From the IMG/VR virus record IMGVR_UViG_3300029985_000137, positions 1-28,603 of that record: a stretch of 28,603 nt of DNA, one strand, 5' to 3'. Shown piece by piece: positions 315-24,684 of this stretch; within the stretch, counting starts at the first letter, position 1, and each line of letters opens with the position of its first letter. This DNA is from a virus. Below the pieces are notes generated by a model. It saw only the letters and a program-made list of their open reading frames with translations. It made no database searches and had not been told where the DNA came from. Both the position numbers and the translations under genes were made by a program.

Positions 315-1031
315 TTAAGAAGCCCTCTTTAAAGTTCTTCCTAAAATAGGACGATTATTATATAAAGCATACTGAACTTTATTAATAGTAGTATTCCATT
401 TATCAGCAAAATCACCCACTGATTCATAGAAATTACCCAAATCATCAAAGAACTTAGAACCGCGAACTTTGCGACAAGTTTCCTTAGATTTTTTCTGAGC
501 TTCTTTATTAATATTCACTTTCTTACTCATTCTTTCCCGCATTTCGGGATCTGCCCATTGCTTTTTAGTTAATTCTGAAAGATGTGCTTTAACTTCTGGA
601 CGATTTAAACCTTCTTTAACTCGTTCACGATGAATTCGCTTAGTTTCAATAATATCAAACCTTCCTCTAGTCGCTCTTCCGCCCAATTCATGGTTTAATA
701 AATTAGCGCCTAACCCCTTAAAATAAGCAATCCAAAAAATTTCAGCTTCGTCGATTAATTCAGAATCTTTATCAAAATATTCTAAAAAAACAACATCAAA
801 TATCTTTTTACGATCCTGTTTTAATTCTTTTAACCACCATTTAACCGCAGTTTTATTATTTCTACTCACTGATTTCCAATGAGTAAAGAATCTTCCATTT
901 CCAGTTGTAGATAATCCAACGTATTTAATTTCTTTATTGTCTGGATCTATAAGTCCATATATAAAATATGGAGTTTCAGATTTAGGTAAAGTATGAATTA
1001 GCGATTCATTTTTTCTTTTATTTATATTCAT
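315..1031 (-). CDS. GIY-YIG homing endonuclease (free-standing)
   Basis: A 238-residue protein if started at ATG 1031. The GIY-YIG core is at the N-terminus: FIYGL (residues 23-27), YVGLS (37-41), a conserved-type Arg (R47), an acidic region DEAEIFW (94-100) that should hold the catalytic Glu, and the LLNHELGG block (111-118). The C-terminus is Lys/Arg rich and ends in a NUMOD1-like helix-turn-helix (about 190-238), as in I-TevI-type phage homing enzymes that cut DNA to spread their own gene. The frame is open further up to a GTG at 1067. I chose 1031 because the repeated promoter-like motif at 1032-1046 ends exactly at this ATG. The gene sits between two tail genes and interrupts neither. 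Confidence 0.88.
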   Translation of the reverse strand: MNINKRKNESLIHTLPKSETPYFIYGLIDPDNKEIKYVGLSTTGNGRFFTHWKSVSRNNKTAVKWWLKELKQDRKKIFDVVFLEYFDKDSELIDEAEIFWIAYFKGLGANLLNHELGGRATRGRFDIIETKRIHRERVKEGLNRPEVKAHLSELTKKQWADPEMRERMSKKVNINKEAQKKSKETCRKVRGSKFFDDLGNFYESVGDFADKWNTTINKVQYALYNNRPILGRTLKRAS

Positions 1032-1046
1032 ACTATAGTTGTTAAA
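1032..1046 (-). promoter_or_regulatory. Phage promoter-like motif TTTAACAACTATAGT
   Basis: One of seven copies of the WWTAACAACTWWWDT motif. Its last T directly abuts the ATG at 1031 of the GIY-YIG gene. It also lies inside a possible longer reading frame (GTG start at 1067), where it would encode FNNYS. I read it as a promoter or initiation signal because the same arrangement occurs at 3655, 12244 and 27002. Confidence 0.55.
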
Positions 1047-1092
1047 TTTTTCTAAATTATCCTCCACTATCTGTAAGTATATGATTTTATTA

Positions 1093-6600: not shown

Positions 6601-7711
6601 CCGCACGTGTACCAGCAGCGGGAGCGGGAACAAGACCTTGAGTTCCTCCAGAACCTGTATCCCCAACAAAGGGATTTAGCATTGCTGTAACTTGTGTAGC
6701 AGTTAAATCTGCTGCATTTGCAGTAGAGCCAGTATTATTACCGAGAATAGTATTAGCAGGCATTTGTGCTAAATTACTATTAGTAATTACATTAGTTCCC
6801 GAAACACTTCCAGCAGAACCTGCAATATTGCCGCTAACTTGTGAACCAGGAAGAACAAGAGAAGGAAGACTTGTTAATGTATTATTAGAAGTTGCAGTAA
6901 TATTAGCGGCATTACCAGAAATATTACCAGTTACTTGAGATCCTGGAAGAGAAAGAGAAGGTAAAGAAGTGAGAGTGCTATTACTAGTTGCAGTAATATT
7001 AGCTGCAGTTCCAGTAGTATTCTGATTCCAAGTTGGAACAGTTCCAGAAAGTTGTGAATATGGAAGATTTAAAGAAGAAAGAGTTGTAAGAGTTGAGTTG
7101 GAAGTTGCAGTAAGAGAAGCAACAGCAGAACCAGGACCAGAAGCAGTTACATCGCCGGTAAGTGCAGTAATATAATTACCGGATGTTTGTTTATTATTAA
7201 AAGTATTCCAGTCGGCAGCATCGAGCAATCCGGATTGAGTCGCAGAAGCAGTTTGTACATTAACAGTAACATTAGGACCAACAGTAGAACTAGAACCATT
7301 TCCAACAGTAACGCCTGTAGTAGATGTACTGATAGAACCGGGCGTTAGAGCCGGTTGTAAGGCATTTAATTGAGTTTGAATTGCAGAAGTTACACCATGA
7401 ACATACCCAAGTTCAGTAGATGTAGTAGGAGATGAGGCTAATTGACTCCCGCTATCAGCATAAACTGCTGTATTAGGAGTTAAACCTTCGTCAATTATTT
7501 CAGCAGCAGTAACGGTTCCGGGAGTTACAAGATTACCAGAACTATCAATAGTTGCTGGAGTTGTTTGAATTACTGAACCAGAAGTACCGGAAAAGGTAGC
7601 AACTTCATTATTAACTGAAGATCCGGAACCAGATGTGACAGTTCCTGGAGGGATAGTTACTGAATTAACTAAGTCTAACTGACCCGTAAGAGCATTAAAG
7701 CGAAATGCCAT
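3665..7711 (-). CDS. Large tail fibre/receptor-type protein with a beta-propeller
   Basis: 1348 residues, rich in Gly, Ser, Thr and Val. The start MAFRFNALTGQLDLV is a common fibre N-terminus. Residues about 190-300 carry tandem roughly 32-residue units (ITATSN.TLTSLPSL.LPGSQV.GNI). Residues about 390-750 look like a beta-propeller: repeated blades such as GYVYIATQNKGLTVVDVGGG and AYVTDGNQGTIDIIDITTPT, of LVIVD/YVTN type. After that come fibre repeats (VVNGGTGQST, IANGGTGQTT). The last about 85 residues form a domain also seen in the 161-residue protein at 11758. ATG 7711 overlaps the stop of the HNH gene by one base (TAATG), behind GGTAGGG. Likely a host-binding or appendage protein. Confidence 0.75.
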   Translation of the reverse strand: MAFRFNALTGQLDLVNSVTIPPGTVTSGSGSSVNNEVATFSGTSGSVIQTTPATIDSSGNLVTPGTVTAAEIIDEGLTPNTAVYADSGSQLASSPTTSTELGYVHGVTSAIQTQLNALQPALTPGSISTSTTGVTVGNGSSSTVGPNVTVNVQTASATQSGLLDAADWNTFNNKQTSGNYITALTGDVTASGPGSAVASLTATSNSTLTTLSSLNLPYSQLSGTVPTWNQNTTGTAANITATSNSTLTSLPSLSLPGSQVTGNISGNAANITATSNNTLTSLPSLVLPGSQVSGNIAGSAGSVSGTNVITNSNLAQMPANTILGNNTGSTANAADLTATQVTAMLNPFVGDTGSGGTQGLVPAPAAGTRAAGDFLSANGTWAYVDQSTPLYNPFSFIGITPWTGSTSAKFENIATYTGIDGHKQYAAIVAGGGAGTLFIWDITDPGIPVLCSFIVLSGAYNLSIAKISGAIYAFIPSSGATTLYTINITNPYSLTTTSSLTISGSPGSLYSCVYANGYVYIATQNKGLTVVDVGGGLAGGTITVPVQSYQEGGTTNRTGGVAVFGNYVYTTNYQTTFPATVRYLKTWEVAAGGGTLAVPFLANTYTISGGPTGTSTKPLGVSISPSGTTAYVTDGNQGTIDIIDITTPTSPNYLTYITPSYTLVDNSLETVVTVAASNGNYIYVPSGNNATNGGAVDLFDVTNPAAPFKVKSIYTGVPNDVFGGIALNSGYIFGADYGVSGGYSGIAVFAQPDLNPVLGDTTAANLTVASLNTSGVVLNSAAGVISTGQVSLTSNVSGILPVVNGGTGQSTYTDGQLLIGNSSTSGLTPSTITAGSGVSITNGHGTITIAATGSGGTVTSVGLADTSTTPIYTVTNSPVTGAGTLDLTLNTQSANKVFAGPSTGSAAQPTFRSLVAADIPSLSTTYVTQSEVGANNGVAPLGASGKIDIGYLPADVFIYQGTWNPNTNTPVLIDGTGTAGYVYWVSAAYSGTVVGLSNPSMTNFEIGDLVLYNGTQWELTTPAAGVTSVNGAQGVVTVNAINQLTGDVTTSAASGSQSEAATLATVNSNTGSFGSSTSIPSFTVNGKGLITAASSNAVIAPAGTLSGTTLNSTVTASSLTSVGTISSGTWNGTTIAIANGGTGQTTATNAINALLPSQTGNSGQFLTTNGTAASWSPVTSGSVTTVSVVSANGLAGTVANATSTPAITLSTTVTGLLKGNGTAISAATAGVDYQAAGNYPIASSGDINETQFTAADNQSSPANVTGLAFANATVRSANILLSIVRGSTYAQYKISLVQGASSWYIDQEYAGDATGLTFTVTSAGQVQYTSSSTGSTANIHFRALTLSV
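6815..7110 (-). repeat. Tandem repeats in the fibre gene, shared with the second fibre
   Basis: Three related units of roughly 100 bases encode ATSNSTLT.L.SL.LP.SQ(V/L).G modules. Very similar DNA occurs at about 11265-11420 in the other fibre gene: the plus-strand stretch GCAATATTGCCGCTAACTTG is found in both. This gives homology for recombination between the two genes. Confidence 0.72.
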
Positions 7712-8361
7712 TAGGATACCCTACCTTTAACTGCTTTAAACGAATAATTATCGGTAGTTTTATGACAATCTTTACATAAAGTTCTCATGTTAGAAATTTC
7801 ATACCTTAATTCTGGGTAATTACACCATTCTTTAATATGATCCATCTCTAAATTACCCCCGCGAATATTACATATTTGACAAGTATAATTATCACGATTA
7901 AAACATTCTTTTCTAAGAGCTTTATAATTATCTCTTGACATTAATAATATTCGTTCAGAGGTTTTACCACCTGCCCAAGCATTAGAATCTTCACTAAATT
8001 TATTTAATTTAGCATTTCTCTGTTTTTCTTTAATTTCTTGAGTAAAAACTATACCACCAAATGTATTAATTATTTCCATTCTAACCTTATCTTTTTCATA
8101 AGATTTATTTGATTTATAATTAATACCTTTATTCCAAGTAAAATGACCAGATTTAAATGCAGTTAAATCTGAATTAGGATTTCTATCTTTACAATCTAAA
8201 CAATGATTTTTATATTTACCAGTTTTAATATTCCAAGCTTGAGCATAACCAATAACTCGTTCACATTGGCAAGATTCACATACAGCAATCCATTTAGATT
8301 CTTTCATTTTCTTAGAAGAATCTATTTGAACTAACTGAAATTTAAAATCTTCCCAACCCAT
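7711..8361 (-). CDS. HNH homing endonuclease (free-standing)
   Basis: 216 residues; ATG 8361 follows a perfect AAGGAG. N-terminal zinc-binding Cys pairs are at C28/C31 and C54/C57. A linker with HFTWNKG and NAWAGGK motifs (NUMOD3-like wording) follows. The C-terminal HNH core has C161-x2-C164, DH at 174-175, N191, C196-x2-C199 and H200, so a zinc-braced HNH nuclease with its catalytic His at 175. Such genes spread by cutting DNA lacking them. It lies between a complete small gene and the large fibre gene and interrupts neither. Its stop codon overlaps the fibre start (TAATG), so fibre translation is probably coupled to it. Confidence 0.88.
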   Translation of the reverse strand: MGWEDFKFQLVQIDSSKKMKESKWIAVCESCQCERVIGYAQAWNIKTGKYKNHCLDCKDRNPNSDLTAFKSGHFTWNKGINYKSNKSYEKDKVRMEIINTFGGIVFTQEIKEKQRNAKLNKFSEDSNAWAGGKTSERILLMSRDNYKALRKECFNRDNYTCQICNIRGGNLEMDHIKEWCNYPELRYEISNMRTLCKDCHKTTDNYSFKAVKGRVS

Positions 8362-8370
8362 TATTGCTCC

Positions 8371-8628
8371 TTAAGCTGTTCTAGTTACAGAAAGTAGATT
8401 AGCTTTAGTAGAATCAGTATAAATAACCGTTAGAGTATAAAGAAAACGAGTTCCTTCATAGTAACTATAAGTTTCTGTTGTAGCGTTCGGATAAGCAGCT
8501 TGAACATTATTACCTAATTCAGCACCAACAAAAGAACCTACTGCAATAGTAGCATCAGCAGGATTATACGCTTTTTGAAAAATTTGTTGATGGTCGTAAT
8601 CGGTAAATGGTTTATTTGAATCGGCCAT
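8371..8628 (-). CDS. Small virion-type protein, family unknown
   Basis: 85 residues. The N-terminal piece DHQQIFQKAYNPADATI resembles the N-terminus of the 770-residue protein at 18894 (QEQIIQQVFDPANNTI), so both may share a docking segment used in virion proteins. The rest is beta-rich (TETYSYYEGTRFLYTLTVIY). Its ATG overlaps the TAA of the upstream gene by one base. I recognise no named family. Confidence 0.7.
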   Translation of the reverse strand: MADSNKPFTDYDHQQIFQKAYNPADATIAVGSFVGAELGNNVQAAYPNATTETYSYYEGTRFLYTLTVIYTDSTKANLLSVTRTA

Positions 8629-8786
8629 TATTTTTTCTCCGGAAGTTTATTAAAAGCCATTTTTCCCTTATTATGGGAAACATATTCTTTGGCTGCAGCA
8701 GAACTCATTCCCTTTTTCTTAGCTTTTTCTGGGTTATTTTCCAACATTTTAAAAAAGCGAAATTGAGATTTACTATTTGCAGGAAT
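8628..8786 (-). CDS. DUF3008-like small basic protein, probable ATT start
   Basis: About 52 residues: (M)PANSKSQFRFFKMLENNPEKAKKKGMSSAAAKEYVSHNKG.... The pattern 'PAxSxxQ.RFF...NPEKA...GMS..AA.E..' matches small phage proteins of the DUF3008 type, which normally begin PAKS. In this frame no ATG lies near that point. The codon at PANS-1 is ATT (8786-8784), 7 bases behind AAGGAAGGG, an excellent Shine-Dalgarno. The alternative TTG at 8816 has no ribosome site. I therefore propose a rare AUU start. Its stop overlaps the next ATG (TAATG). Function unknown; family assignment is from memory. Confidence 0.65.
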   Translation of the reverse strand: MPANSKSQFRFFKMLENNPEKAKKKGMSSAAAKEYVSHNKGKMAFNKLPEKK

Positions 8787-8790
8787 ATAA

Positions 8791-9024
8791 TTACCCTTCC
8801 TTATCTTTTTTAGCAAGATTTGAAACGTGATTTTGTAAAGAATAAATTCCGCCTAGTGAAGCAATTGCCATACCAAAATCACTGCCACCAAATAGAGGAA
8901 CTTTAATAAATGACATATCAAATCCACTAAAGGCTAATTTACCAACACAAACCAAGCAACCATAAAAAAAGATTGTTTCAGTTAATGAAGGATTTCCATC
9001 TTTATCTTTAATAAGTAAATTCAT
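8791..9024 (-). CDS. Small membrane protein, holin candidate
   Basis: 77 residues from ATG 9024; an in-frame extension to 9048 would overlap the upstream gene and has no better start. After a polar N-terminus (MNLLIKDKDGNPSLTET) comes a hydrophobic stretch at about 18-34 (IFFYGCLVCVGKLAFSG), then a second, weaker one (about 45-61, GGSDFGMAIASLGGIYS), and a basic C-terminus (NLAKKDKEG). Proteins with this 'KDxxGxPSLT + membrane segment + DFG/A..G.LGG.Y' form recur near phage fibre and lysis genes and are often listed as putative holins. Membrane location is well supported; the lysis role is not proven. Confidence 0.68.
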   Translation of the reverse strand: MNLLIKDKDGNPSLTETIFFYGCLVCVGKLAFSGFDMSFIKVPLFGGSDFGMAIASLGGIYSLQNHVSNLAKKDKEG

Positions 9025-12275: not shown

Positions 12276-13715
12276 TTATTTGTTTGACTTTTTTAACTTA
12301 ATCTTACCACAATCATATATACGCACCAGACCGTCCAAAAGGGCATGTTCGTGTTCTGTCATCTCTTCTGAAGTATTAACTACTGATTTTTTACGAGATT
12401 GTTTACTAATTATTTCATTATTTTTTGTATTATAATAAAAGTAATCCGGCGATAATTGATGAATAAATTCCCATCCATTCTTAATCCAAGAATCGCCATT
12501 TGAAATACGCAAATCAATCCAAGTAGTTAATTCATTAAATTCTTTTAAAGCATTAGAAGTCAACTTAGAAAGACCGCCCCTAACCGTAACATTATTTTTA
12601 CCACAGTAACGGGATAATACAAACTCATCTATCCCTCTATGATGTTTTCCTATTGTTATTAAAGCGACTAATCCTTCATTAATATCAACTAATCCAAATG
12701 CTTTTGTAAAGTTAGTTGAACCTAAAATATGATACTGATCTAAAAATTGATTAGCATCTTTTTTAGGAATTTCTTTAAATTCTAAAGATCGAGCATTAAG
12801 ATAGATTTCATTACAATTCAATGCTGAACGAATAAAACTTTGAACTTGTTTTTTTCTATTTTCCCATTCAAAATCAAATATTTGAATTAAACGCATTCCT
12901 TTATCTTTACAAGCTATCCATTTATCAAGATGATACCTTGGATATATTTGTTTATTAGCCTCACTATGCCAATATGCCCCATTATATTCAATTGCTAAAT
13001 TCTTCTCTTTAATGAGAATATCTAATTCTATTCCCTTTATAGTTAAACGATCATTGATTTCTTGAGTTTTAATATTTAAATCATTTTTTATAAAATCAAT
13101 CAATTCCTGATGCCCTGTTGAAATTGGATTATAATAAATTAAATCATTACTTTTATTAACTTTTTCCCAACTTCTTAGAAATTCTCTTCCTTGATTATCT
13201 TTCCATCTATAAATATCATTACATTTTGTATATTTATTACTTAAACATGTGCCACCAAATTTTTTCGCATGATCTTGTAGATCTTTTAGACAATATAAAG
13301 TCTTTAATGATGAAAGTTTCTTTCGTTTTTCAAAAGGGGACCATTGACCGGATAAAATACAATCCCATGTCATGTCAAATTTATTATTTTCAGAATCAAC
13401 CCAAGAATAATATGTTTTAGTATTAATATATACATCAGAAAGACATTTACCACCTTTATTTTGGGCGAATTTTTGTAAATCTTCAATATTATATTTTAGA
13501 TTTGCTTCTCTCTGTTTTTCTTTAACTAAAAATGGAGACCATTTGCCCTTAAGAATTGCATACCATTTAGCTTCCCATTGATTTCCTAAATGATCTTCCC
13601 ATAAATATTTTGTATGGGCATTAATGTATTTATCAGAAATACATTTGCCATCCTTTAATTCTGCAAATTTTTTTAAATCTTCAATTAAATATGATTTTTT
13701 CTCAGCCATATACAT
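12276..13715 (-). CDS. Vsr-like homing endonuclease (I-Bth0305I type)
   Basis: 479 residues. Three copies of a roughly 53-residue module open the protein (about 10-62, 76-128, 142-193), each with 'DL..FA...GGKCLS..Y.N....Y.W......F...W..IL.G.WSPF'; the third is the most divergent. These are likely DNA-binding modules. Residues about 197-300 form a Vsr/EDxHD-type nuclease: GIELDIL (E230, D232), AIEYNGAYWHS (E243, H250), HLDKW (H262) and LIQIFDFEW. A C-terminal domain (about 305-479, GKHHRG, FVLSRYCGKNN, WIDLRISNGDSW) follows, as in related phage enzymes. The gene stands between the capsid terminator and the next promoter, with its own sigma-70-like promoter. ATG 13709 (MAEKK) is an equally good start. 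Confidence 0.85.
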   Translation of the reverse strand: MYMAEKKSYLIEDLKKFAELKDGKCISDKYINAHTKYLWEDHLGNQWEAKWYAILKGKWSPFLVKEKQREANLKYNIEDLQKFAQNKGGKCLSDVYINTKTYYSWVDSENNKFDMTWDCILSGQWSPFEKRKKLSSLKTLYCLKDLQDHAKKFGGTCLSNKYTKCNDIYRWKDNQGREFLRSWEKVNKSNDLIYYNPISTGHQELIDFIKNDLNIKTQEINDRLTIKGIELDILIKEKNLAIEYNGAYWHSEANKQIYPRYHLDKWIACKDKGMRLIQIFDFEWENRKKQVQSFIRSALNCNEIYLNARSLEFKEIPKKDANQFLDQYHILGSTNFTKAFGLVDINEGLVALITIGKHHRGIDEFVLSRYCGKNNVTVRGGLSKLTSNALKEFNELTTWIDLRISNGDSWIKNGWEFIHQLSPDYFYYNTKNNEIISKQSRKKSVVNTSEEMTEHEHALLDGLVRIYDCGKIKLKKSNK

Positions 13716-15847: not shown

Positions 15848-16807
15848 TTAGATTCCAAAGAAGTCCTTGAAGCTCTTTTTCTCACCAGATTTCTTTTCTT
15901 GACTTTTTCCTGAAATTCCAGTATCTTTAATAGGAGCTTTACCAATTGCTTGTTGAGCAGCTTGAGCTTTAGCTACACGCTTTTTACGAAGCTTATTAAG
16001 CATTTGTTCACCAATGAGCTGTTCAACTGCATCTTCGGGAAGAGAGGCAAACATTTCTTTGAGATCGTTATGCATTTCTTCACGAACAAGAGGAATTACA
16101 TCATCAGGAGATACATCTTTACCGGCTTGAAGTGCGGCAAGCATATAATCTGCAATCTTTTTAACTGTATAGGGGGTTTTTGGAAGATCAGACTTAGCTA
16201 GCGATTGTTCCATTTGAACATCATATTGTTTGAAAGCTTGTTCCTGAAGACGATCGAATTCTCGTTTTTCAGATTCTTTCTTTTCATTATCACGTTCAAA
16301 TTTAATGCGCTGAAGTTCTTGTTCTAGCTGTTCTGCTCTAAGTTGTTCAGGAGTTTTCTTGGCATTTTCCATTTGTTTATTGATATATTGATCAATAACT
16401 TCTTCAGGCTTCATCCCGAGTTGGGACATAGCATGAAATGGATCTTTTCCAAAATCTGTAAAGAAAGCACGGACTTGTTTTTCAAGATCGGCGTGTTGTT
16501 GGGCGCGTTTTTGGCCCATTTTTGACATTTGAAGTTCACGAATTAAACGATCTTCATCATCTAAATCAATTTCTTCTTCAATTTCTTTACCATCTACTTT
16601 AAGTTTAAGCTTTTTGAGACGTTTTTCATTCTCTTTAGCTTTTTTTGGATCAAGTTTGGTAGTTTTAGCAGGTTCTGCTACAACTTCACCCTCTTCAGCA
16701 GCTTCTGCTGCATCAAGCTCTGCGTTTTCTTGGGAAGAATCGCCAGTTTCGGCTGAAGTTGCGGGGGTATTAACGACTGGTGCTACTGCAGCGGCTGAAT
16801 CACTCAT
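15848..16807 (-). CDS. Head scaffolding protein
   Basis: 319 residues; ATG 16807 follows AAAGGAAA. The N-terminus (1-50) is Ala/Glu rich and disordered; residues about 52-80 are strongly charged (KENEKRLKKLKLKVDGKEIE). A long coiled coil lies at about 135-205 (EQLRAEQLEQELQRIKFERD). The C-terminus is basic and ends GEKKSFKDFFGI, like the coat-binding basic helix of podovirus scaffolds. The acidic-then-coiled-then-basic layout and its place just before the coat gene are classic for scaffolds. I see no protease motif. Confidence is from layout, not from a sequence family. Confidence 0.75.
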   Translation of the reverse strand: MSDSAAAVAPVVNTPATSAETGDSSQENAELDAAEAAEEGEVVAEPAKTTKLDPKKAKENEKRLKKLKLKVDGKEIEEEIDLDDEDRLIRELQMSKMGQKRAQQHADLEKQVRAFFTDFGKDPFHAMSQLGMKPEEVIDQYINKQMENAKKTPEQLRAEQLEQELQRIKFERDNEKKESEKREFDRLQEQAFKQYDVQMEQSLAKSDLPKTPYTVKKIADYMLAALQAGKDVSPDDVIPLVREEMHNDLKEMFASLPEDAVEQLIGEQMLNKLRKKRVAKAQAAQQAIGKAPIKDTGISGKSQEKKSGEKKSFKDFFGI

Positions 16808-16889: not shown

Positions 16890-17273
16890 TTATTGGTCTG
16901 AATTTCCGCCAGAATTCTGAAGATTTTGAAGATAACGCATTTTTAATTGAAGTTTAGCTTTATCATCATCAGACATTTGAGGTTGTGGACTGAAATACGG
17001 CATACCAGTATCTGGATTGATGCCGTTAGAAGTTGGAGGCATTGCTCCTTTATAACCACCAAGAGGTTGAGCTACACCACCTTTGGTTGCCGCATTACTA
17101 ATTTGTGAATTAGCTACTGCTTCTGGATCTGGTTTACCAGGGGCAACTGTTAGCTCATTAGGATTAGCGGGTGGTAAAGTCGGAATATTGGGAAGATCTT
17201 CTTCATCTTTTCCGGGATTATTTTTACGAATAGCTTTGGATATTGCATTTAAAAATGCTGCTTGATCTGCCAC
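16890..17273 (-). CDS. Pro/Asn-rich phage protein, function unknown
   Basis: 127 residues from GTG 17273, which has a strong Shine-Dalgarno (AGGAGGG) inside the end of the upstream gene. A short N-terminal helix (QAAFLNAISKAIRKN) is followed by a Pro/Asn/Gly-rich disordered middle (NIPTLPPANPNELTVAPGKP) and a C-terminal helix (DDDKAKLQLKMRYLQNLQ). Two helices joined by a flexible linker suggest a binding protein in head assembly. I recognise no family; it lies directly before the scaffold gene. Confidence 0.7.
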   Translation of the reverse strand: MADQAAFLNAISKAIRKNNPGKDEEDLPNIPTLPPANPNELTVAPGKPDPEAVANSQISNAATKGGVAQPLGGYKGAMPPTSNGINPDTGMPYFSPQPQMSDDDKAKLQLKMRYLQNLQNSGGNSDQ

Positions 17274-17275
17274 GA

Positions 17276-21803: not shown

Positions 21804-24094
21804 TTATTTATTAGATACATTTCCTAATGAGGATTCTTGAGCCGCAGGATTGGGTAATAGGCTTGCTTTAACTGTTGGAGTTTTGGGCATGCCTTTAACC
21901 ATTGGTGGACTCTGTGGAGAAGCCATAGGATGAGGAGCATGTTTACCATGATGAGATGGCCCTTGCTGTTGTGGAGGCCCCTGAGGCGCAGGGCCTTGAG
22001 GTCCAGCAGGAGGAGCGCCTTGTTGACCAGGAAGAGGCTGGCCAGGAGGCGGGATAGGCTGCTGGCCAGTAAGGGCTAGGAGCCTAGGATCTGTATTTTG
22101 TAAAGCATCCATATGTTGTTGTATATGATCCATTACAGTTTTAACTGTATTGACATCCGTACGAATATCTGTATCATCTAATACAGAACGATGTTCTTGA
22201 ATATGGAATGCATGAATATCTGTTGGCGCTGTAATAGGATTCTTACCTTCTGAAAGCCATTCATTTTCTTGACGAACAAGAAGTTGTTGGCTAACTTCAC
22301 CTTCAAACATAACATCAATACGTCCAGTATTAAGAACTTGAAAATATTGAGTAGGTTCTTTAATAATGCCCATTTGCATCATCTGTTCAGCCATTTGAAC
22401 ACGGCCAGCAATTGTACGAGAAAGAGCATTACCAACATCTACTACTACTCTATTAATAGCATGAAGATCTTCACCTGTAAACTCTTTAAGTAACATTTTC
22501 TGATTTTTACCGACAAGAGCAGCTACTTTAGGAGTATTAGCATAATCTTTAAGAATATTAATAATACCAGTACCACAATCTTCAATTAAACGAACATAAG
22601 ATTGTTGAAGGCCAGAGACATATTGAAGAGCCATCGATTGAACTAGAGCAAGAGCGGCACCAGACTTAAGAGAAGCTTCAGGATTACCACGAGCTACAGA
22701 GTTAACGCCGGAAATAGTTTCAGCGGATTCAATAAGCATTTCAAGAAACTTAAAGATTTCAGCAGGAGTTTGTGTTAAATTCAATGGAACAGGAGCAGAA
22801 TTAGCTTCAATAATATTCATGCCACCATGAAACTGGTCTACAGAAATATCTGCACCACGCTGTACATAAATATTCTGCACACCGAATGCTGACTGGTTAG
22901 ACATAATAGTAGAATAAAGCGCGTCAATACCCTGTTGAATAGGAAAGATGTCAAACATGCCTGAATAGCCATATGGAGTTCCGAGGATTTCACCAGCAGA
23001 AACCCGGAAGATAGGCATTACGCGATAGGGAAGCGGAGTATCAAGCATCACGCTATTAGTATCACAGAATAGCATATAACGCCCCTGAGGCATTGATTCT
23101 GTGCGTTTATGAAAGAACTCATATACTGGAACATCATCTGTATTATCATTAGACATTAAAGCCATACGATAAATACCGGCATCTGATTTAGAAGGAATAC
23201 CAGCTAATTGATCTTTAAGTTCAGGGTATTTGGCCATGAGATCGAACCGATTTTGAAAGGTTCTGATCATATACCAATCTAATTTCGCATTCTCTTTAGA
23301 TCCGTCGAATACGACATCAAATGGTGATAGATTAGTAAATTCAATTTCGCCTTCTTTAATTTCCAGACCATTCTCATCAATATCATAAACATCGCCAGCT
23401 GTGGCATTCCACTCCATTTTAATAAATCCAGCACCAAGAACAATAGCCATTTCAGCAGCAGTGATTAGAGACTTCTCTAAATGCTTCTCTCGCATATAAT
23501 AATCTAGAATACCATTAGCAAGATAGGTTTGTGCAATGGATTTATAATCACTATTAATAGCCCGAGCTTCCATTATTGGGCGATTGGAAGTAATCATTAC
23601 AAGAATGTTCTGAGCCAAGTTACGGAAGTGATTAACATGAAGACTTACAAACTCTTCTTGTTCTCCAGTAAACATAATCTGGTGGCCACCGCCAACGGAA
23701 GTATCAAAACAGCCATGATCAATTTTGTTACTCTTCTTTCGAAGGGAAGAACCTCTTCGGATTCTTCTCTACCTCTTTTTTTGTTATAAGGTAGTTCAGA
23801 CTATCGCACCCTTTTTCAAGGCCCACTCACTTAGTCGTTCAGGCTGGCTATTCGCCTTGCCCCTTGTTGTCCTCTACAGGAGTTCCAAGTCAATCAGAGT
23901 AGGTTTATAGAACGCAAAATTTACGTTCTCCACATCAGAGTTAATTTCTCTAGATATGCATTGGCTTCTAATACATTATAAAATGATTTTGATTTTGCTA
24001 AAAGAATAGATGCGGTATCATTTGCTTCTTTTGCAGCAAAATAGGTGGTTGTATCTCCACCATTATTACCGAACATTCCAGATGTAGTACTCAT
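21804..24094 (-). CDS. Portal protein, gene split by a group I intron
   Basis: Exon 1 is 24094-23923 (172 bases) and exon 2 is 23719-21804 (1916 bases); joined they give 695 residues in one frame. Exon 1 ends YLEKLTLMWRT, exon 2 continues YHGCFDTSVGGGHQIMFTGE, the wording expected in P22-type portals before VNHFRNLAQNILVMITSNRP (N-terminal wing). Also seen are DYYMREKHLEKSLITAAEMA, GAGFIKMEWNATAGD and a Pro/Gln/Gly-rich tail (about 615-695). Portals form the ring through which TerL pumps DNA. Unspliced, exon 1 stops two codons after MWR at TAA, and exon 2 alone (ATG 23675) would lack its N-terminus. ATG 24094 overlaps the HNH stop (TAATG) behind AAGGAAG. Confidence 0.88.
23720..23922 (-). ncRNA. 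Group I intron without ORF, in the portal gene
   Basis: About 203 nt on the minus strand. P1: exon GAACGT pairs with GCGTTC in the intron, leaving the diagnostic U-G pair at the 5' splice site (after 23923). P3: CCTACTC (23903-23897) with GAGTGGG (23828-23822). P7: GACTA (23836-23832) with TAGTC (23803-23799), inside R- and S-like elements CTGAACGACTAAG and GCGATAGTCTGAAC. P8: CCTT-GAAA-AAGG. P9: CTACCT (23794-23789) with AGGTAG (23774-23769), then two more hairpins, one capped GAAA. The last intron base is G 23720 (omega G). Splicing joins T with AT into a Tyr codon and restores the portal frame exactly. P4-P6 pairing is less certain. Confidence 0.9.
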
Positions 24095-24684
24095 TATTCA
24101 CTTCCTTTTTTCCAGGTCTTATTTTCATAAGTTCCATCAAATTTATTATTTTTACTAGAGTTTTCACTTTTTGTAATATATTGTAAATTCCAAGGAACAT
24201 GTAAACCGCAGACTATACTACCCTTTAAAGGGATAATATGATCTACTGTTAAATTTTTAGGGCATAACGCATAAATATTTTCTATCTCTACTAGTAAGTT
24301 GTTAAAACCCGCCAGTTTTCGTTGTTGAATATATCTTTTTGATTTTAAAAAACATTTTGCTTTATTTTTTTGATAATAATTTTTATATGCATTAGGTCGA
24401 TTAAGCCTATCTTTTTTTCCAAAGCATATATTACATAAAGATCCGGGTCTATTATGTACTATTTCACATTCTTTACAAACATGTTCTTTTGATTTTTGTT
24501 GTTTATATGATTCTGTACTTCTACATTTAATGCATTTATTAAAAATATCAATATGTTCTTTATTACAAAGGGAACAGATTCTGTTAATATTTTTTAAAAT
24601 TCGGCGTTCTTTATATCGGCATGAATTACATTTATTATGTCTAGAATTAAAATAATGAACATCACATTTTATACAGATTTTCAT
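24094..24684 (-). CDS. HNH endonuclease with zinc ribbons (free-standing)
   Basis: 196 residues; ATG 24684 follows AAAGGAAATAAAC. The N-terminal half has repeated Cys pairs of zinc ribbons: C4/C7 with C19/C22, C37/C40 with C51/C54, C70/C73 with C84/C87. The C-terminus holds an HNH core: LTVDHIIPLKG (D148, H149), GLHVPWNLQYI (H162, N166) and NSSKNNKF, the common phage 'VDHIIPL.G..V.GLHVPWNLQ' type. It lies between TerL and portal exon 1, not inside the intron, and its stop overlaps the portal ATG. Its closeness to the intron suggests it may drive the intron's spread. Plus-strand GTTGTTAAAA at 24299 is a poor motif copy within this gene. Confidence 0.9.
   Translation of the reverse strand: MKICIKCDVHYFNSRHNKCNSCRYKERRILKNINRICSLCNKEHIDIFNKCIKCRSTESYKQQKSKEHVCKECEIVHNRPGSLCNICFGKKDRLNRPNAYKNYYQKNKAKCFLKSKRYIQQRKLAGFNNLLVEIENIYALCPKNLTVDHIIPLKGSIVCGLHVPWNLQYITKSENSSKNNKFDGTYENKTWKKGSE

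Follow-up and report, generated by a model that had tools for sequence, protein, structure and literature searches.

A probable AUU start codon behind a strong Shine-Dalgarno sequence in a small phage gene, with a second case in the same family

AUU start codons in phages and bacteria

The closest described system to the locus presented here is orf28 (terS) of the S. thermophilus phage TP-J34, which has a predicted AUU start behind AAGGAGGTggatgtATT and was resequenced (PMC3952083). A phage AUU behind a strong Shine-Dalgarno sequence has thus already been predicted. In the open-access literature searched, as far as its texts were accessible, no other phage AUU start was found, and the recurrence of such a start within one family was not found described; for terS itself, the accessible part of the TP-J34 report was not found to mention recurrence in its family (PMC3952083).

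In bacteria, one of 61,358 ancestral AUG starts became AUU (Belinky et al., PMC5622118). In the same study, genes starting with GUG or UUG more often carry a strong Shine-Dalgarno sequence, and the accessible part of its text gives the association between Shine-Dalgarno strength and the start switches themselves as not significant (Belinky et al., PMC5622118). Non-canonical starts are repressed by IF3 (PMC5472188). The AUU and AUA starts of S. aureus that have an extended Shine-Dalgarno sequence give about 10% of the AUG output in poor medium, and in the AUU case the medium was without effect (PMC13009471), which argues against these starts acting in general as a growth-state switch. It has also been described in E. 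coli that re-initiation drops with the distance between stop and start, that a Shine-Dalgarno sequence aids it, and that with mutant initiator tRNAs it could proceed from non-AUG codons (PMC2268962).

The DNA analysed here is the virus record IMGVR_UViG_3300029985_000137, the whole of which (28,603 bases) is called the window, its relatives being named by L-numbers. The minus strand of the window carries a phage structural region, with profile matches to terminase, portal and major head protein. A small gene on this strand shares with terS the location in a head/packaging region and an AUU placed close behind a very strong Shine-Dalgarno sequence (AAGGAGGTggatgtATT in terS), whereas its protein family is a different one and terS is one predicted case (PMC3952083). 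It resembles S. aureus cvfC1 (AUU, 61 aa) and ccpN (AUA) in joining a weak start codon to an extended Shine-Dalgarno sequence, and cvfC1 also in being small; however, these two genes are bacterial, conserved in staphylococci and shown by ribosome profiling and reporters, and cvfC1 is the first gene of its operon, with no nearby stop before it (PMC13009471). The AUU start is also shared with E. coli infC (PMC5472188) and pcnB (PMC13009471), in both of which it limits synthesis, but infC and pcnB belong to cells, IF3, the product of infC, regulates its own gene (PMC5472188), and, unlike the setting of both, the relatives of the window gene use AUG.

We consider it quite probable that the window gene (8786-8628) is translated from AUU, which would be made usable by the strong Shine-Dalgarno sequence, and that the switch of start codon was tolerated or favoured and was repeated in a second viral lineage, L171. 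Two probable switches in one small family would constitute a natural test of whether the strength of a ribosome site permits or compensates weak codons, and the same pair could test whether phages set protein dose by initiation checking. There is also a consequence for annotation, where gene finders limited to ATG, GTG and TTG miss AUU starts, so that such genes become truncated or absent. The open reading frame lists indeed mis-start both genes, that of the window at a TTG and that of L171 at an ATG 11 codons in. The features of the region are collected in Table 1.

Table 1. Features of the region; positions refer to the window, except where the number of a relative is given
Feature	Position	Strand	Basis or remark
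ATT codon, proposed AUU start	8784..8786	-	family start position by homology
Shine-Dalgarno AAGGAAGGG	8794..8802	-	7 bases upstream of ATT; duplex -8.9 kcal/mol
Gene with proposed AUU start, 52 codons + stop, PHROG 25121/16759 family	8628..8786	-	profile match
TTG, sole canonical in-frame start upstream of ATT; judged unused	8814..8816	-	duplex +1.2 kcal/mol; added residues unconserved
Upstream gene, 77 aa	8791..9024	-	weak match to membrane-protein PHROG, E 0.012
Downstream gene, 85 aa	8371..8628	-	start ATG shares bases with the stop of the AUU gene (TAATG)
HNH ORF, like free-standing homing endonuclease	7711-8361	-	PF01844, E 1.1e-7
ORF resembling free-standing homing endonuclease	24094-24684	-	relative in L067
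Two ORFs resembling free-standing homing endonucleases	12276-13715; 315-1067	-	read from translations
Relatives of the portal insert in the capsid gene, examples	L077 8952-9130; L069 8859-8998; L023 9213-9294; L050 10144-10259		blastn

The start position by homology and the alternative starts

On the minus strand, the frame at the start reads ATA AGG AAG GGT AAT TAT ATT CCT GCA AAT AGT AAA, and the conserved part of the product, (I)PANSKSQFRFFKMLENNPEKAKKKGMSSAAAKEYVSHNKGKMAFNKLPEKK, is encoded by 8786-8628. By profile, the product belongs to PHROG 25121 (E 1.1e-6, positions 1-46 of 263), annotated as virion structural protein, and to PHROG 16759 (E 1.3e-4, positions 2-46); all the relatives but L171 begin with ATG or GTG. 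The first position of the PHROG 25121 profile falls on the ATT codon, where the preliminary description of this DNA, made from the sequence alone, had placed the family N-terminus (8786-8784), and the Shine-Dalgarno sequence that it had noted seven bases before ATT is likewise seen on the minus strand, at 8802-8794. Its label for the gene, DUF3008-like, is without support, since no family was matched at E<=1 either in Pfam, with the window protein or five relatives as queries, and hence none named DUF3008, or in NCBIfam, with the window protein; the term DUF3008 was not found in the open-access literature searched. The predicted structure of the product consists of three helices (mean pLDDT 82, pTM 0.60, from an alignment of 48 sequences), and its comparison with the PDB gave 0 matches at E<=0.001 and 36 at E<=10, the best with E 3.0.

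Most relatives were collected by patterns that omit the start codon (SKxQ...) and were therefore not selected for ATG. They constitute a sample, two of the pattern searches having given 80 of 219 and 80 of 205 matches. From 172 matching frames, 104 distinct DNA contexts were obtained, window included, with identical contexts counted once; L002-L005, which are copies of the window and of L001, were left out of the counts, as were, in the tally of 104 contexts, three second matches in which the start of the profile was displaced (L122, L195, L196). Among the matches listed, the codon at the family start is ATG in 97 of the 104 contexts, GTG in three (L102, L180, L230) and ATT in two (the window and L171), the remaining two being off register, with their own ATG one codon upstream (L186) or downstream (L055). 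A further tally, by tblastn with the window protein as query, which did not yet include L171 and was used for 8786 alone (many rows for other genes were out of register), gave 71 ATG and 1 GTG at the ATT codon.

The residues around this codon lead to the same position. S at +5, K at +6 and Q at +8 are invariant (100%) in the 102 in-register members, among which are the window and L171, and P at +2 is present in 98% of them, and at positions -5 to -1 the commonest residue accounts for 17-38%. Conservation thus sets in at the ATT codon and not before it, which indicates that the conserved protein begins there. The other way of starting this frame would be TTG 8816, adding ten residues before the conserved part. 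This codon is canonical and in frame, with no stop in between, but the added stretch holds no conserved residues, L171 has no such alternative, and, as the preliminary description had maintained, TTG 8816 is without a ribosome site, its duplex of +1.2 kcal/mol being matched or beaten by 88% of 2000 random positions; we regard a start there as very improbable. The same description had stated that no ATG or GTG is near. This stands for the upstream side, where none occurs in frame back to the stop, but not for the downstream side, where ATG 8747-8745 follows 13 codons on; a start at this ATG (codon 14) would lose the most conserved motif.

The Shine-Dalgarno duplex of the ATT codon is reached by 0.9% of 2000 random positions, and the site ranks second of the 31 listed starts of the window, with only GTG 17273 being stronger (-10.8 kcal/mol). 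One of these 31 starts (17578) was placed one base off, which leaves ATT 8786 and TTG 8816 unaffected. As a separate observation, the gene at 17273-17275 (minus strand), whose GTG stands behind CCCCAGGAGGG, again presents a weaker codon with a strong site.

The stop of the upstream 77-aa gene (TAA 8793-8791) lies 4 bases before ATT, so that re-initiation is possible, and the TAA of the AUU gene in turn overlaps the ATG of the 85-aa gene. The upstream 77-aa protein, used as query, gave no viral relative. The frame of AUU is +1 to the upstream gene and a purine-rich stretch precedes the upstream stop, as would suit a +1 frameshift at the end of this gene and the production of a fusion protein. 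However, the two proteins are encoded by separate genes in the relatives compared, no slippery codon is evident before the stop, and TAAT is an efficient stop context, so that such a fusion is hardly credible.

Under the preferred reading, initiation at AUU itself, the strong Shine-Dalgarno sequence AAGGAAGGG would hold the ribosome in place, allowing AUU to be accepted by fMet-tRNA, and initiation would probably be increased by ribosomes arriving from the end of the upstream gene. The strength of the ribosome site would then account for the change from AUG to AUU having been tolerated or favoured. We infer from the sequence that initiation at AUU occurs in this phage gene. By analogy with the systems described above, its output would be well below the AUG level and modulated by IF3, and re-initiation after the upstream gene would help AUU.

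A second probable AUU start and the strength of the ribosome sites

The viral contig IMGVR_UViG_3300007169_000279 (L171) carries ATT at the same family codon, behind CCGGAGGTGGGTT, whose duplex of -10.8 kcal/mol is the strongest of the 104 contexts. The stretch from the upstream stop to this site lacks ATG, GTG and TTG; CTG, ATT and ATA stand farther up. As in the window, the start of the next gene lies in a TAATG overlap. The wider setting differs from that of the window: by eye, the L171 gene lies between a portal gene and a gene like that at 15848..16807 of the window, and not in the tail region. In a tree built from 61 columns of 98 proteins, with many forks left open, two changes are needed for the two ATT rows, and the two genes are joined in 0% of 200 bootstrap trees. 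Taking into account that the ATT genes stand apart on the tree, the switch from AUG to AUU probably happened twice, separately in the window and L171 lineages.

The whole viral collection was scanned for ATT, ATC or ATA followed by a form of the family motif, which returned two records, those of L171 and L251. In L251 the match falls inside a protein that is not related to the family. The pattern fits only part of the sequence variety of the family, the record of the window not being returned, and its ATG form was found in 76 distinct contexts among the collected loci. No unusual RNA folding was detected around either AUU start (z 0.33 and -0.86). The minimum-energy fold of L171 1481-1500 is a 7-bp stem with the Shine-Dalgarno sequence in the loop, one arm holding the upstream stop codon and AUU ending the 3' arm; its z of -0.86 against shuffles is not significant.

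Among the 104 contexts, the Shine-Dalgarno sequence of L171 ranks first and that of the window about third, with L242 (-9.2 kcal/mol) between them and L173 tying with the window at -8.9 kcal/mol. The median of the other 103 contexts, L171 included, is -4.7 kcal/mol, and 3 of these 103 relatives are at -8.85 or lower (in an earlier, smaller set, 0 of 75 were as strong as the window). For two given genes, the probability of both ranking among the top three is 5.6e-4, or about 1e-3 counting the tie, figures which are indicative only, since the comparison was framed after seeing the first case. For all the families collected, 42 of 618 ATG starts reach -8.85. Close relatives of L171 that start with ATG (L173, L175) also have strong sites, and thus the strength of the site may precede the switch rather than compensate for it.

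As a control, 1.87 Mb of collected loci yielded 721 frames whose start position is supported by at least four homologues, 103 of them belonging to this gene family according to a motif test. These starts comprise 621 ATG, 24 GTG, 3 TTG and 73 others, many of the latter being register errors or shadow frames. ATT, ATA or ATC is found in 23 of the 721. Inspection by eye led to the rejection of eight plus-strand rows, which have an ATG or GTG within 9 codons, and of 13 minus-strand rows, which appear to be shadow frames. Twelve further rows, with other codons and no canonical start near, include pieces of the major capsid gene in L058 and L070. The only AUU, AUA or AUC starts of the 721 judged credible are those of the window and L171, both from one family.

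These results bear on the reading that the true codon of the window is ATG and that sequencing or assembly introduced one wrong base. Each ATT is known from one metagenome contig, and no other copy of the window region was found: a DNA pattern spanning the start, in which any third base was allowed in the codon, gave no second copy of the window lineage (near records are perhaps excluded from that search), and nothing was returned from phage records by blastn of the 1.4-kb region or by tblastn of the AUU-gene protein. The predominance of ATG among the relatives listed would also agree with an error. Nevertheless, an identical base of this gene would have to be wrong in both records, each time behind a top-ranking ribosome site; the 721 supported starts hold no other credible case of the AUU type; and in the AUU case of TP-J34 an error was ruled out through resequencing by the authors (PMC3952083). 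An error in the window is thus unlikely, and errors in both ATT cases are much less likely than one in the window alone.

If the mutation is real, the gene could still have lost its start and be silent or nearly so, as an early pseudogene. AUU is weak in the bacteria tested, at about 10% of AUG (PMC13009471), and the neighbours have ribosome sites of their own, so that the loss would be harmless to them. However, the reading frame is intact, the invariant residues of the family are kept, and strong ribosome sites are common to both ATT cases, which makes the loss of the gene improbable. In the comparison of L171 with four ATG relatives, pS is 0.51-0.65 and pN 0.12-0.16; the window gives pS 0.80 and pN 0.33 against L083, and pS 0.63 and pN 0.31 against L059 (33 codons). 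From these values, the protein looks to be under constraint, mostly older than the switch.

It has to be distinguished from translation at AUU, which we favour, whether this codon represents a selected and recurrent setting, in which a strong site combined with a weak, IF3-checked codon would provide a low dose, dependent on the state of the host, of a small structural-region protein, at which at least two lineages would have arrived independently. This stronger proposal is doubtful.

Insertions and putative homing endonuclease genes

The portal gene of the window (24094-21804, minus strand) is split by a stretch of about 205 bases that holds no long ORF (23923-23718), and the coding parts flanking this insert correspond to residues 4-59 and 61-694 of the portal protein in L007. 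The insert looks like a group I intron; against Rfam, no family reached the gathering score and no intron family appeared at E<=1. ORFs resembling free-standing homing endonucleases are also present on the minus strand (Table 1). The 17 loci with a blastn match to the insert (E<=1e-6; some near-copies) all have it between two pieces of the major capsid gene, the break corresponding to about residues 43-58 of the window protein. An intron family seems to interrupt the portal gene of the window and, in many of its relatives, the capsid gene.
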